In this document: positions 31 through 14,337 of the stretch, piece by piece
How positions within the stretch are numbered: position 1 is the first letter of the stretch
How the letters are laid out: each line of letters opens with the position of its first letter
Source: Acidimicrobiaceae bacterium
GTDB lineage: Bacteria; Actinomycetota; Acidimicrobiia; Acidimicrobiales; Aldehydirespiratoraceae
Assembly: GCA_028819005.1 (NCBI GenBank)
Contig: JAPPMP010000002.1
Span: 18,570 to 54,932 of the forward strand
Reading direction: 5' to 3'
DNA length: 36,363 bases
Program-made: the position numbers and the translations under genes
Notes under the pieces: model-generated
The model's database searches: none
What the model was told of the DNA's origin: nothing
What the model saw: the letters and a program-made list of their open reading frames with translations, nothing else

Positions 31-1386
31 TTACTCGTAACGGAGGGCTTCAGTAGGCGACAGGCGAGAAGCGCGAACGGCCGGATAGATTCCGGCCAAT
101 GCGCCAATGGCGAACGCTGCGCCGAGACCGCCCCAGACCGCTATGTCGGGGATGATCACCCGCCATCCCTGAGTCGTCGAATAGCCCGCGGTAACCGCGA
201 CGCCGAGCAGCACCCCGACCGCACCTCCCGCCGCAGACAAAAGTAGCGACTCGGCCAGAAATTGGCTGAGGATATGAGCTCGAGTAGCCCCGATCGCTCG
301 TCGCAAACCGATCTCGCCGCGCCGTTCGAGCACACCGATCACCATCACATTGGCTATACCGATCCCGCCGACGAAGAGTGCCACCGCGCCCAAGCCCAAG
401 AACAGATTGGCGAACTGGTTCTCCGCTGCCTCTTGTGCCTCCAACAAGTCCGAGGGGCGGCTCACCTCGACCTCTTCAGGGTTCGCCGGGTCGGCCGTGG
501 CGGGCATCACATCGCGGGTAATGTCAATCCAACCTTCGTCGACACGCAGATAGACCGTCGTCGCGGTGCCGTCAGCATCGAAATAGTCGATCGAAGCCTG
601 ATGCCCGATAATTGCCGCCCGGTCCAGATCGGGGGCCAGCGCAAAAGGCTCCAAGATGCCGACCACCTCCACCCAACGCTCGCCGATGAGCACCCGCGGC
701 CTGTGGGTGAGGTCCCTGATCCCCAGTCGCTGCGCAGTCACCGACCCCAGAACCACGGCGGGATACTCGAGGGCCGCCTCAGTCAAAAAAGTGCCATGGG
801 CGACTTCACCGTTCAGGGTTTCGAGCAGAGCCATGTCGCTCGCCACCACCGAGATGCCGCCAGTCTGACCCGACGGGATGAAGTCGCTGCGGTACACGCC
901 GGCGTCGACTGACGAAACAAACGAAATCTCCTCCACACTCCCCACCCGTCCGATCATCGCCACAGCCTCATCGGGAAGAGTGGCGTCGCCGGCGCCGAAA
1001 CCGGCTGATGGAGTCACCTGCAACAGGTTGGTGCCCAGAGCATTGATCTTGTCGAGCAAATCGGACTTGGACGACTCCGAGAGTCCGAGCACGCCCACGA
1101 GCGATGCGATACCGATGGCGATACCCAGCGCTGACAGGGCCGCGCGCAGCTTCCGCGATTGAAGCCCGGCGAACCCGACACGCAGCACATCAAGTGGCCG
1201 CAGCCGGCTCGGTCGGATCTCCGAGGCCGCTGAGGTCACCTGGCCGGCAGGATGAGCCGGGTGAGCCGAGTCCACCATCGGGTGAGCCGAGTCCACCGAG
1301 TGAGCCGAGTCCGCCGAATGAGCCGAATCCGCCGAATGAGCCGAATCCGCCGAGTCCCCCATCGGGTGAGCCGAGTCCGCGTTCAC
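31..1386 (-). CDS. MacB/FtsX-type ABC transporter permease
   Basis: Membrane permease of a MacB-like ABC exporter, 451 codons from a GTG start. The start overlaps the ATPase stop (GTGA), so translation is coupled. After an unusual N-terminus of about 48 residues made of DSAH/SADSAH repeats comes a membrane helix at about residues 80-105. A periplasmic-type (here extracellular) domain with beta-rich sequence follows, then three membrane helices at about 330-445, which is the FtsX-like fold. The C-terminal motif PTEALRYE is typical of the MacB/LolC family. Expected partners are the ATPase at 1383 and the HlyD-like adaptor at 2084. The substrate is unknown; macrolide, peptide or lipid export are all possible. 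The repeat-rich N-terminus is encoded by an 18-bp tandem repeat and is not a normal family feature. Confidence 0.9.
   Translation of the reverse strand: MNADSAHPMGDSADSAHSADSAHSADSAHSVDSAHPMVDSAHPAHPAGQVTSAASEIRPSRLRPLDVLRVGFAGLQSRKLRAALSALGIAIGIASLVGVLGLSESSKSDLLDKINALGTNLLQVTPSAGFGAGDATLPDEAVAMIGRVGSVEEISFVSSVDAGVYRSDFIPSGQTGGISVVASDMALLETLNGEVAHGTFLTEAALEYPAVVLGSVTAQRLGIRDLTHRPRVLIGERWVEVVGILEPFALAPDLDRAAIIGHQASIDYFDADGTATTVYLRVDEGWIDITRDVMPATADPANPEEVEVSRPSDLLEAQEAAENQFANLFLGLGAVALFVGGIGIANVMVIGVLERRGEIGLRRAIGATRAHILSQFLAESLLLSAAGGAVGVLLGVAVTAGYSTTQGWRVIIPDIAVWGGLGAAFAIGALAGIYPAVRASRLSPTEALRYE
1283..1354. repeat. 18-bp tandem repeat, four copies, in the permease N-terminus
   Basis: Four consecutive 18-bp units (1283, 1301, 1319, 1337) of the form TGAGCCGAGTCCGCCGAA with one or two substitutions. 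More degenerate copies lie on both sides, from about 1252 to 1380. On the minus strand each unit encodes six residues of the SADSAH series. The repeat begins just after the overlapping ATPase stop/permease start. Confidence 0.9.
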
Positions 1387-10641: not shown

Positions 10642-11541
10642 CTACCAGTCGGAACGGCCGGGACCGACAGCTTGCCTCAGTTCCACAAGGTGGTGCAACA
10701 GCGCCGGTGGAGCGGCAACCGGCGACCGTTGAGCCTTGTGATCGATACACGCCAAGTCCCGGCCTTCGGCGTCAACCGTCTCCACGCCGACTTCGCGGCA
10801 GATCAGCACCGCACCCAAGTAATCCCAAACGTGGAGCGTGTCAGCGAAGTCGACGAAACCAGCGAAACGCCCATCGGCTACAGCGCACAGTTCGAGAGCG
10901 CAGGATCCCATGGTGCGAAACTGCCACCAGCCGGGCGAGGCGGGCGGCAGACCGTTGACAGCCACGACTGCTTCGGAGAACTCGACCGGCGGGGGTGTCC
11001 GGAGTGCGACGCCGTCAAGGTCGGCTCCGCGACCGCGGATCGCCGTGTAGCGCCGATTGCCGGGATGGTCGTGAACGACCGCGACCCATGGGCCGTCGTC
11101 GTCGACCACACACAGGCTCGTCGCAAACCACGGAAGCGGCAGCGAAGCGTTGGTTGAACCGTCCAGAGGATCGACCACCGCCACCAGTCTCCCGCCAAGC
11201 CGCTCGGGATCCCCCCGCTCATGCTCGCCCCGCTCCGATCCCCGCCCATGCTCGCCCCGCTCCGATCCCCGCTCATGCTCGCCCCGCTCACCGGGCCGCT
11301 CGGGCCGCGGGCCGGGCCGCTCGGGCCCTAGGCCGCTCTCCTCGCTTAGGACCCGGATACCGGTGTCCCCCAGCACACCGAGCACCGCTTCGTCAGCGAC
11401 CAGGTCCGGTACGTACTGATCGTGGCGCAATCCCGACTTCCCCCAGTCGCGGTTGTCCGCGAAAGCCTCAACGACCGCATCAGCAGCTTCTTGCAGGACG
11501 GCCAGAACCTCTTGGGCGGTCAACTCCGTCGACTCTGTCAT
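10642..11541 (-). CDS. Inositol-monophosphatase-family phosphatase with low-complexity insert
   Basis: Mg-dependent phosphatase of the IMPase/FBPase/HisN superfamily (299 aa from ATG 11541; a GTG at 11550 is an alternative, with GGAG just before it). Metal-site motifs are present: LSEES (first Glu pair), VVDPLDGSTN (second motif), and WDYLGAVLICREVG (third, with Asp). The substrate could be inositol phosphate, histidinol phosphate, PAP or another small phosphate; motifs alone do not decide. Between the first and second motifs is an Arg/Glu/Gly/His-rich insert built from a 9-residue repeat (GEHERGSER), which is not part of the family fold. Its proximity to the importer gene (122 bp) suggests no clear functional link. 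Confidence 0.85.
   Translation of the reverse strand: MTESTELTAQEVLAVLQEAADAVVEAFADNRDWGKSGLRHDQYVPDLVADEAVLGVLGDTGIRVLSEESGLGPERPGPRPERPGERGEHERGSERGEHGRGSERGEHERGDPERLGGRLVAVVDPLDGSTNASLPLPWFATSLCVVDDDGPWVAVVHDHPGNRRYTAIRGRGADLDGVALRTPPPVEFSEAVVAVNGLPPASPGWWQFRTMGSCALELCAVADGRFAGFVDFADTLHVWDYLGAVLICREVGVETVDAEGRDLACIDHKAQRSPVAAPPALLHHLVELRQAVGPGRSDW
11217..11290. repeat. 27-bp tandem repeat, 2.8 copies, in the phosphatase gene
   Basis: Units start at 11217, 11244 and 11271 and differ by one base (GCTCATG versus GCCCATG). Each encodes nine residues of the GEHERGSER series on the minus strand. Confidence 0.93.
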
Positions 11542-11552
11542 CTCTCCCACAT

Positions 11553-11760
11553 CTCCACTATCACTTTCCTCTGTCCCTCACTGGCTGTCCCTCACTGGCC
11601 CTCACTGTTTCGGGCCGTACGTGCAGGTCGGCACCAGCGACGACTATCACTTTCCTACTGGCCATCACTGGTCCTCACTGGCCCTCATCGTCTTTCTCTA
11701 TTCCTTTCTTGCCTGCCCCTTGCTTTCTATCCCTCTCCTGTGACCCCTCTCTGTCTCTCG
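11553..11760. repeat. Pyrimidine-rich region with degenerate CCTCACTGG repeats
   Basis: About 200 bp that is strongly C/T-biased on the plus strand. It contains several TCCCTCACTGG or ATCACTGG-type units. Two longer related blocks begin CTATCACTTTCCT, at about 11558 and 11645. No gene is supported here. It lies upstream of both divergent neighbours. Confidence 0.6.
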
Positions 11761-11841
11761 AATCGCTCTGCTGACGAACAATCCCCGACAATCAGGTCGG
11801 CGCCCACACGATACGCGCCGAGACATGGCAAGCTAGTGGCA

Positions 11842-12405
11842 ATGGCAGTCATCGACCTACAGGGATTCGTTGCCGATCTCAAGGACCATGTGGTCGAGCA
11901 CGGCTTCCACGTTCACGATGAGCGGCACTTCATCGAGACTTACACCAACAGACAAACCTGGGAGGTCGACCTGCACCCCGATCGGGCTTGTGACGGCCCG
12001 TTGGACATGCATATCGCTCTCGAAGTCGACCCGCGGTCGCTGATCATGTTCGAAGACGAATTGAATCGCGTTGGTGAAGCAGGCGAGCCCTCTGGCGACA
12101 TCCGCCTGCCGCTCACGATCAGCTTCGCTCTGCCGCCGCTGCCGTATGCGCCCGACTTGCTCATCCTGGCGACCGATCTGGCCGGCGTCGGCTCCACCGA
12201 GTTGCCGCTCGAAGTGAGCGCTCTAGACAGTTTCGCCGCGGTGACCGACGGACCGGTTCGGGCAATCAGCATCGTCGCCCGCGTGGAGGTGGAGCTGGCG
12301 AGAATCTTCTTCGGTCGAGACGTGCTGTGCGATGTGCTGGATCGCTGCTCGAAGGTCGCCGAATTCCTGCTCGACCGCGCGCCGGCCTGGATTGACGAAC
12401 CCTGA
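11842..12405 (+). CDS. Hypothetical protein of 187 aa
   Basis: A single clear open frame with coding-like composition, starting MAVIDLQGFVADLKDHVVEH. The ATG at 11842 is chosen because the frame upstream runs into the pyrimidine-rich repeat region and reads as low-quality sequence. The ribosome binding site is weak. No signal peptide or membrane helix is seen. It has mixed alpha/beta character, with segments such as ITFALPP-like LPLTISFALPPLPYAPDLL and a C-terminal RVEVELARIFFGRDVLCDVL. I do not recognise the family. It is convergent with the peroxiredoxin, and its stop lies within the 27-bp duplication. Confidence 0.8.
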   Translation: MAVIDLQGFVADLKDHVVEHGFHVHDERHFIETYTNRQTWEVDLHPDRACDGPLDMHIALEVDPRSLIMFEDELNRVGEAGEPSGDIRLPLTISFALPPLPYAPDLLILATDLAGVGSTELPLEVSALDSFAAVTDGPVRAISIVARVEVELARIFFGRDVLCDVLDRCSKVAEFLLDRAPAWIDEP

Positions 12406-12458
12406 GGGGTTCTGCACTGATCAGGTGGCCAAGGGGTTCTGCACTGATCAGGTGGCCA
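12405..12458. repeat. Perfect 27-bp tandem duplication between convergent genes
   Basis: 12405-12431 and 12432-12458 are identical. The unit contains the peroxiredoxin stop codon (plus-strand TCA at 12448) and the palindrome CTGATCAG. The duplication therefore copied the 3' end of the peroxiredoxin gene, including its stop. Confidence 0.95.
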
Positions 12459-12903
12459 ACTCTCTCAGGGCCGCCAGCGCCTCGTCGGTGTGAACAGCGA
12501 TGTCGGTTTCGCTGCGGATCGCCCGGATCACCCGGCGGTCTTGACCTATGACGAAGGTGCTCCGCACCGGCGGAATCAATCCGAAGCGCTTGACGCCGAA
12601 CAGACGCGCCACCCTGCCCCCGGGGTCCGATAGCAGCGGGAAACCCAGTGTGTGCTTCTCATCGAATCGTCTTTGCCGATTCACCGAATCGGGGCTGATT
12701 CCCACTCTGGAGGCGTTGAGTTCGGCGAACTCCGACTTCAGGTCGCGGAAACTGCAGCTTTCCCTGGTTCAACCAGGGGTCATCGTCCGCTGGTAGAAGA
12801 ACAGGACCAACGGTCCGGTCGCAACCAGGTCGTCCAGCGTCACGGTGTTGCCGTGCTGGTCTTCCAGGCTGAAGTCGCCGACCAGCTCACCTTCGCTCAG
12901 CAT
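12448..12903 (-). CDS. bcp: BCP/PrxQ peroxiredoxin, candidate selenoprotein (in-frame TGA at residue 45)
   Basis: Thiol (or selenol) peroxidase that reduces hydroperoxides, 151 residues if the in-frame TGA at 12771-12769 is read through. The ATG at 12903 has a strong GGAGGTG ribosome binding site 9 nt upstream and follows the metY stop by 3 bp. Visible features: FSLEDQHGNTVTL, LVLFFYQR, then TPG-TGA-TRESCSFRD, then ISPDSVNRQRRFDEKH, FPLLSDPGG and RSTFVIGQD. The TGA falls exactly on the peroxidatic residue, equivalent to E. coli BCP Cys45. The resolving cysteine is kept at position 50. No other stop or frameshift occurs. Selenocysteine insertion is the best explanation; a point nonsense mutation or sequencing error is the alternative. 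Without readthrough only 44 residues would be made. Confidence 0.8.
12739..12766 (-). promoter_or_regulatory. Candidate SECIS-like hairpin just after the TGA
   Basis: Starting 3 nt after TGA, the RNA can pair CAGG-GAAA with UUUC-(bulge CGCGA)-CCUG, leaving the apical loop GCUGCAG with G first. Bacterial SECIS elements have a G near the start of the apical loop. That loop is usually 16-37 nt after UGA; here it is about 11, so the match is imperfect. Confidence 0.35.
12762..12778 (-). other. Perfect 7-bp hairpin with the TGA codon as its loop
   Basis: CCCTGGT and ACCAGGG flank the TGA exactly. The structure is mutually exclusive with the downstream SECIS-like hairpin because both use ACCAGG. 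It could be chance, given the TPG-x-TR codons. Confidence 0.6.
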
Positions 12904-12906
12904 CGG

Positions 12907-14238
12907 TTATCCACCTCCGTTGTTCAACGAAGCCGCTGCCGCGAACCCCTTGTCGAGATCCGCGATGATGTCGTCGATCGACTCGAGGCCCACCGACAGC
13001 CTCACCAACCCCGGAGTGACGCCGGTCGACTCCTGCTCTTCTGGTGTGAGCTGGGAGTGGGTCGTGGCTGCGGGCTGAATCACCAGGCTGCGGGTGTCGC
13101 CGATGTTCGCCAGGTGGCTGTGGAGCTCGAGGGCCTCGACGAATTTCTTGCCCGCTTCGAGCCCGCCCTTGATCACAAAGGCAGGTACCGAGCCGTACCC
13201 CTTCCCACCGCCGAGTTCGTTGGCGATGTCGTGCCAGGGCGAGTCGGGCAGCCCCGCGTAGGCGACCGATTCAACCTGATCGTGGGAGGCGAGGTAATCG
13301 ACGACTGCGTTCGAGTTGGAGAAGTGACGTTCCATCCGCAGGCTCAGCGTCTCAAGACCCTGCAGCAGCAGGAAGGAGTTGAACGGCGCAATAGCCGCTC
13401 CGATGTCTCGCAGGAGCTGCACTCGGGCTTTGATGATGTAGGAGCCCGCGCCGAGTGCCGGCCAATAGGCCAGGCCGTGATAGCTGGGGTCTGGTTCGGT
13501 GAACATCGGATGCTTGCCGGAAGCCCCGAAATCGAAACTGCCTCCGTCGACGATCACACCGGCGATTGCGGTGCCGTGTCCGCCGATGAACTTCGTCGCC
13601 GAATGGACGACGATGTCCGCGCCGTGCTCGATGGGACGGATCAGATACGGGGTGGCCACAGTGTTGTCGACGATGAGCGGCACATTGTTGGCATGGGCGA
13701 TGTCTGCAACCTTGGCGACGTCGACCACGTTGTTCATCGGATTGCCGATCGACTCGCAGTAATACGCCTTGGTATTGGGCTGCGTGGCAGCTTGCCAGGC
13801 GTCGGGATCGTCGGCGTCGTCGATGAAGGTGCAGGTGATCCCCATCTTCGGCAATGTGTAGTGGAACAGGTTGTAAGTCCCGCCGTAGAGGGCAGCCGCC
13901 GACACGATGTGGTCGCCGGACTCAGCCAGATTCAGGATCGCCAGGGTTTCTGCTGCTTGGCCCGACGACAGCGCTAGTGCCCCGGGAATGCCGACCGCGG
14001 TTTCGGTGCCGCCTTCAAGACTGGCGAGGCGGGACTCGACCACGGCTTGGGTCGGATTCATTATCCGGGTGTAGATGTTGCCGATCTCAGCCAACGCGAA
14101 CAGGTTCTTGGCGTGATCGGAGTCGCGAAACTGGTAGGCCGTGGTCTGATAGATCGGCACGGCACGGGAACCAGTGGCCGGGTCGGCTTCTTGGCCCGCA
14201 TGGATTTGGCGGGTCTCAAAACCCCAGTCGTTGCTCAT
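12907..14238 (-). CDS. metY: O-acetylhomoserine sulfhydrylase (aminocarboxypropyltransferase)
   Basis: PLP enzyme (443 aa) converting O-acetylhomoserine and sulfide to homocysteine in methionine synthesis. The family pattern runs from [14 protein letters not shown] and YQTTAYQF to IYTRIMNPT. The PLP-lysine motif is [12 protein letters not shown] (Lys216), and the C-terminus has [18 protein letters not shown] 14238 is chosen because it follows GAAAGG by 9 nt and begins [11 protein letters not shown], the usual MetY start. The open frame extends to 14310 without a matching ribosome binding site. The peroxiredoxin starts 3 bp after its stop, so the two are probably one operon. Cystathionine-gamma-synthase-type enzymes are related, but the roughly 440-aa length and motifs favour MetY. 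Confidence 0.93.
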
Positions 14239-14254
14239 GGTTGTTGCCTTTCGT

Positions 14255-14278
14255 GGTTTGATCCCAACCTCTGTGAGG
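14255..14278 (-). promoter_or_regulatory. Two overlapping small hairpins in the metY leader
   Basis: The about 100-nt metY leader can form CCTC-ACA-GAGG (14268-14278) or GGTT...AACC (14255-14269). The two share two bases, so they exclude each other. I do not recognise a known SAM or other riboswitch. This may be an attenuator-like leader or chance pairing. Confidence 0.25.
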
Positions 14279-14337
14279 CCTTGAACATCGCCGTCAGCCG
14301 TGTTAGCCATCCGGCCAGCGACTAATGGAGCCTATAG

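Follow-up and report, generated by a model that had tools for sequence, protein, structure and literature searches.

The 36,363-nt stretch of DNA analyzed here (the window) carries a minus-strand gene at 12448..12903 that very probably encodes a PrxQ/BCP-type peroxiredoxin with selenocysteine (Sec) at position 45, with a displaced hairpin (H2) as the SECIS element and a helix-closed domain (P1) as the spacer in front of it. The hairpin lies 83 nt after the UGA, and a 55-nt domain with an 8-bp helix at its base would fold out to bring it within normal reach. We consider it probable that this arrangement represents a second bacterial SECIS architecture. The SECIS is the most unusual part of the gene; the original prediction of a selenoprotein contained no SECIS evidence and did not mention Gln38, the residue found at an active-site position of the protein.

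The reading frame runs from ATG 12903 to a TGA stop at 12450-12448 and consists of 151 codons, of which only codon 45 (12769..12771, minus strand) is TGA, which confirms the predicted complete BCP-type frame with one TGA at the peroxidatic codon. The predicted TPG-x-TRESC motif reads TPG-U-TRESC, Cys50 is intact, and the strong ribosome binding site is a GGAGG located 5' of the ATG. Ordinary ORF calling reproduced the anticipated 85-residue C-terminal fragment (12448-12705, GTG start) as the sole call for this frame. Residues 7-125 match the Pfam AhpC-TSA domain (1.2e-31), a span that places the sequence before and after the TGA in a single domain. The top NCBIfam match is the thioredoxin-dependent thiol peroxidase (BCP) model NF006960 at 89.5 bits, below the curated equivalog cut-off of 140; the window peroxiredoxin is divergent. 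Its AlphaFold2 model has a mean pLDDT of 96.4 and, among solved structures, comes nearest in fold to BcpB of M. tuberculosis (5epf; Z 28.9, rmsd 1.1, 52% identity, residues 1-151). The Pfam match, the model and the fold comparison all identify an AhpC-TSA domain with the PrxQ fold. Residue 45 is positioned near the start of helix 2 (residues 43-54) of the model, and the resolving Cys50 follows five residues later in the same helix. BcpB, E. coli BCP and Xanthomonas PrxQ share this fold and place residue 45 at the start of the Cys50 helix, but have Cys where the window protein has Sec. The active-site residues Thr42 and Arg114, the latter being the active-site Arg of peroxiredoxins, are invariant across the alignment. 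The active-site Pro of the PxxxT(S)xxC motif, universal in peroxiredoxins, is absent, and the window protein has Gln38 at this position (codon 12792-12790).

Sec-containing peroxiredoxins are a known family (COG1225, Bcp; PMC5029168, PMC9312934, PMC13188914) with the motif TxxU. The first member was PrxU of Eubacterium acidaminophilum. They are among the commoner bacterial selenoprotein families, with 91 proteins in 78 organisms (PMC5029168). Judged by sequence, the window gene is a new member of this family: its product would share the peroxidatic Sec, TxxU and the AhpC-TSA fold with the COG1225 Sec-peroxiredoxins, but these have the conserved Pro of PxxxTxxU where the window protein has Gln38, and the SECIS proposed for the window gene lies outside the published distance range.

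Codon 45 was compared in 146 readable homologues from the order and family, the window gene included. It is TGA in 85, TGC in 55 and TGT in 6, and no other codon occurs. The proposal that the TGA falls on this codon by more than chance is borne out by the 85 of 85 TGA-bearing homologues that have it at the same codon, with the other 61 carrying TGC or TGT. If the TGA were an error of sequencing or assembly, one wrong base would suffice, TGA being a single change away from TGC or TGT, but the same TGA is found in 84 further genes from other assemblies, which contradicts this explanation and leaves it with next to no probability.

In the genome that contains the window (3.06 Mb, 98% complete), selA and selB are neighbors, SelB scores above the curated cut-off, and a tRNA-Sec above the gathering score is located on the same contig. 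Its selD has an in-frame TGA of its own at the catalytic Cys (GAG-U-GCK), making SelD itself a selenoprotein. All four components that the original prediction listed for a search are therefore present. SelD is a selenoprotein family-wide (L078, L206-L234), and its SECIS, composed of two hairpins, sits at the canonical distance. A hand tally over 198 genomes of the order gave tRNA-Sec in 26 of 29 TGA-form genomes versus 19 of 58 Cys-only genomes (Fisher p 3e-7). Two of the three TGA-form genomes without tRNA-Sec have SelB above the cut-off; in the third, the 83% complete draft G170, tRNA-Sec was not found, and nor was SelB above the cut-off. The peroxiredoxin gene terminates with TGA, and recoding at codon 45 must therefore be context-dependent. 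This bears on the alternative that UGA stands for an ordinary amino acid through a code change or general suppression. The open frame alone would look identical under such a reading, but the TGA terminator, the alignment of the in-frame TGA solely with the catalytic Cys and the presence of the Sec machinery contradict it and make it very improbable.

Between close relatives, dN/dS is 0.12-0.41 for the part of the gene preceding the TGA and 0.08-0.40 for the part following it. Purifying selection is equally strong on both sides of the TGA, and the possibility raised in the original prediction of relaxed selection is not borne out. A second intact BCP, also raised there, was not found in the genome; the sole other match is a distant 1-Cys type peroxiredoxin with 31% identity. 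A nonsense mutation or pseudogene would be in keeping with events in related genomes. The same-genus genome G223 lacks the C-terminal part of the gene, the same-genus genome G379 lacks the gene, and the copy present in both G399 and G400 is frameshifted; these losses and the frameshift indicate that the gene is dispensable at times. However, the same-codon TGA in 84 relatives, the selection acting downstream of the TGA and the Sec-specific fold described below contradict a pseudogene, and we consider this explanation highly unlikely. A UGA aligned with the catalytic Cys, a genome with SelA, SelB, SelD and tRNA-Sec, and a frame under selection on both sides support the predicted candidate selenoprotein, as does the Sec-specific fold. 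Codon 45 almost certainly encodes Sec, and from these comparisons we infer that the UGA is actually decoded in this way.

The damaged copies in related genomes differ in kind. In G223 (L143; G223:C1, ~850-1010, minus strand), the C-terminal part is deleted immediately after the Cys50 codon and the flanking gene order is kept; this genome still carries tRNA-Sec. The copies in G399 and G400 (L156 and L177) are identical Sec-type genes with a frameshift near codon 59 and an intact H2 (67 bits). The assemblies compared are drafts, and the frameshift is perhaps real because two of them share it.

The published bacterial SECIS model describes a small apical loop with G in the first two positions, a 4-16 bp stem and a UGA-to-loop distance of 16-37 nt (PMC13188914, PMC10778597), and according to reviews some bacterial SECIS elements fail to fit it (PMC13188914). 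Nothing conserved or structurally constrained was found at the standard place directly after the UGA in 74 close Sec genes. A canonical SECIS at this location was rejected: the folding z was 0.5, and column-shuffled RNAalifold together with a constrained hairpin search against synonymous shuffles detected nothing Sec-specific.

A scan along the gene that compared folding energy with synonymous codon shuffles revealed two Sec-specific zones, +24..+66 and +78..+114 (offsets count the U of UGA as 0). The second zone is far stronger than the first, with a mean z of -2.76 in Sec genes versus -0.09 in Cys genes (p 1e-19). The sole structure returned by RNAalifold in +33..+113 of 63 Sec genes is H2, an 8-bp hairpin in which +78..+85 pairs with +89..+96 to present the loop GGU at +86..+88. 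Its cells are paired at 95.4-95.6% in the 63 Sec genes versus 36-37% in Cys genes. Both sides of a pair have changed in 46 cells compared to 11.4 in shuffled alignments, and 0 of 500 shuffles reach 46, a comparison uncorrected for ancestry. Compensatory changes also alter amino acids, as in GAC TCG GTG AGT CGG, where Asp becomes Ser and the stem is kept. The synonymous-shuffle z for H2, likewise uncorrected for ancestry, is 26.8 in Sec genes and -2.5 in Cys genes. Of 74 Sec genes, 72 have a G[G/U] loop at +84..+89 on a stem of 6 bp or longer; among the 61 Cys genes, this position stays below the listing threshold. These data establish H2 as a covarying fold restricted to Sec genes.

A covariance model (R1) built from Sec genes matches the window at 12661..12705 (minus strand) with 60.6 bits (E 1.6e-12), a score obtained with the window sequence in the training alignment. 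Held-out Sec genes score 46-73 bits, whereas 83 Cys loci score at most 27.4 bits, with the exception of L145 at 44 bits. L145 is a Cys-type gene in G343 with an H2 stem that is intact save for one A-G mismatch, and it is likely a SECIS fossil from a recent Sec-to-Cys change.

The window copy of H2 (12675..12693, minus strand; +78..+96) has the sequence CCGAUUC-GGU-GAAUCGG with the loop at 12685-12683. Its stem is 7 bp, with C-C in place of the outermost pair, and its energy of -7.8 kcal/mol lies within the SECIS stem and energy limits (4-16 bp, MFE <= -7.5 kcal/mol); the energy threshold is reached by H2 in 70 of 74 Sec genes. The minimum-energy fold of the window sequence over +0..+110 contains P1 and the H1 hairpin that P1 encloses, with H2 replaced by another hairpin. 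When the segment is trimmed to +16..+98, P1, H1 and H2 all form and the H2 probability is 0.98. H2 resembles canonical elements (the bSECISearch model; E. coli fdhF) in its small loop of G then G/U, its 4-16 bp stem and its location in the coding region. The difference is distance: canonical loops lie 16-37 nt from the UGA and H2 lies at 83 nt along the sequence, roughly 50 nt past the accepted limit, with the closed P1 and H1 domain in between, and the SECIS arrangement of the window gene thus falls outside the published model. No report of such a displaced arrangement or spacing was found in the open-access literature, the scope of our search.

The SelD genes of the same family offer a comparison with a SECIS at the standard distance. 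They have a covarying hairpin with an invariant GU in the loop, which starts 32 nt past the UGA. The element in the selD of the same genome is arranged like H2, with a 7-bp stem, the loop GGUCG and an extra hairpin just 5', but differs from H2 in the spacing. A distant Sec-BCP subclade of the order (L053-L063, ten sequences) has an apparently ordinary hairpin with the loop CGUGA 21 nt past the UGA. With loops at 32 nt in SelD and 21 nt in this subclade, the same SelB appears to serve both canonical and displaced elements.

These comparisons also weigh on a different reading of the gene as a selenoprotein, in which a weak SECIS directly behind the UGA escaped detection and P1, H1 and H2 slow the ribosome, protect the mRNA or act in a similar way. 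Many bacterial SECIS elements are degenerate, and the codons beside the UGA are biased: 73 of 84 Sec genes use GGT for the Gly that precedes it, versus 11 of 61 Cys genes, which may reflect UGA context. However, the ~48 nt next to the UGA show neither a conserved fold nor synonymous constraint on structure, and H2 shares the GU-in-loop signature with the SelD SECIS and is missing from the Cys orthologues. We therefore regard a weak element beside the UGA as unlikely and favor H2 as the SECIS.

Folding of -15..+134 in 73 Sec genes uncovered the long-range helix P1, which consists of 8 contiguous pairs and closes a 55-nt domain that holds H1. The 5' strand of P1 is located at 12745..12752 (+19..+26) and the 3' strand at 12698..12705 (+66..+73), and H1 (12716..12734; +37..+55) has a GAGUUC-GCC-GAACUC core; all three are on the minus strand. 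All 8 P1 pairs form in the window copy, and the H1 core is 6 bp. P1 cells are paired at 92.5-93% in Sec genes versus 67% in Cys genes, and the pair +20/+72 covaries, being UA in 38 and CG in 14 Sec genes and mostly C-A in Cys genes. The synonymous-shuffle z values, uncorrected for ancestry, are 19.2 in Sec genes versus -0.7 in Cys genes for P1 and 9.2 versus 4.3 for H1. Mean pair probabilities for P1, H1 and H2 are 0.64, 0.77 and 0.91 in Sec genes and 0.00, 0.02 and 0.00 in Cys genes; the probability of P1 formation exceeds 0.5 in just 67% of Sec genes. A lower stem extending H2 (+66..+74/+102..+110) has 87% of its cells paired in Sec genes but was set aside, as it shares bases with the better-supported P1 (z 19.2 versus 9.2 for the lower stem); it is kept only as a possible alternative.

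The proposed mechanism starts with SelA and SelD, which would make Sec-tRNA-Sec; SelB would then deliver it to the codon-45 UGA. H2 would hold SelB through its GGU loop. P1 would act as a distance corrector by folding 55 nt out of the path, and the route from UGA to loop would become 16 + 4 + 8 = 28 nt, a value within the canonical range and not far from the 32 nt seen in selD of this genome. In the resulting enzyme, Sec45 would be the peroxidatic residue and Cys50 in the same helix the resolving residue. Peroxide reduction would proceed via a selenenic acid that Cys50 resolves as a selenenylsulfide, and a thiol reductant would recycle the enzyme.

If this mechanism is correct, the 16-37 nt rule describes distance along the folded mRNA and not along the sequence. 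SECIS-based finders expect the element 16-37 nt from the UGA, and genes built like the window gene would therefore be missed or annotated as fragments. A folded-out spacer would show how a SECIS can escape from the active-site codons, where the element constrains the protein, and would provide a clear test of how distance is measured by SelB, the mRNA and the ribosome.

Among the phylum genomes sampled, the TGA form was detected in one order only. It was not found in 396 genomes of the phylum outside the order (E 1e-25), and one contig scan beyond the order returned Cys homologues only. The closest relative with a name is an Acidimicrobiaceae bacterium, at 53%. The Sec/Cys state has changed about eight times across 145 sequences. 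All 61 Cys forms retain both Pro38 and Cys50, whereas 17 of 84-85 Sec forms lack Pro38 and 15 of 85 lack Cys50. In the four copies from the same genus, residue 38 is Gln, Leu, Gln and Tyr. By parsimony, Pro38 was lost 3 times and Cys50 4 times, each time on a Sec branch; Sec accounts for 20.0 units of branch length and Cys for 18.5. A phylogenetic independent-pairs test of Sec against loss of Pro38 or Cys50 had just 3 usable pairs, and with so few independent events the link is suggestive only. The repeated loss of Pro38 and Cys50 only in Sec forms suggests that selenium may relax supposedly universal peroxiredoxin rules.

The gene upstream of the peroxiredoxin (12907..14310, minus strand) ends 3 nt before its ATG and, from our own reading of the sequence, presumably encodes a PLP-dependent enzyme resembling O-acetylhomoserine sulfhydrylase (MetY). 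This MetY-like gene is adjacent to the peroxiredoxin gene in all four same-genus copies and in just 5 of 41 Sec loci. On the other side is a convergent neighbor (11422-12405, plus strand), which 29 of 41 Sec loci also have next to the Sec-type gene, compared with 0 of 26 Cys loci. A perfect 27-bp tandem duplication, consisting of two identical copies at 12405-12458, extends across the peroxiredoxin stop codon.
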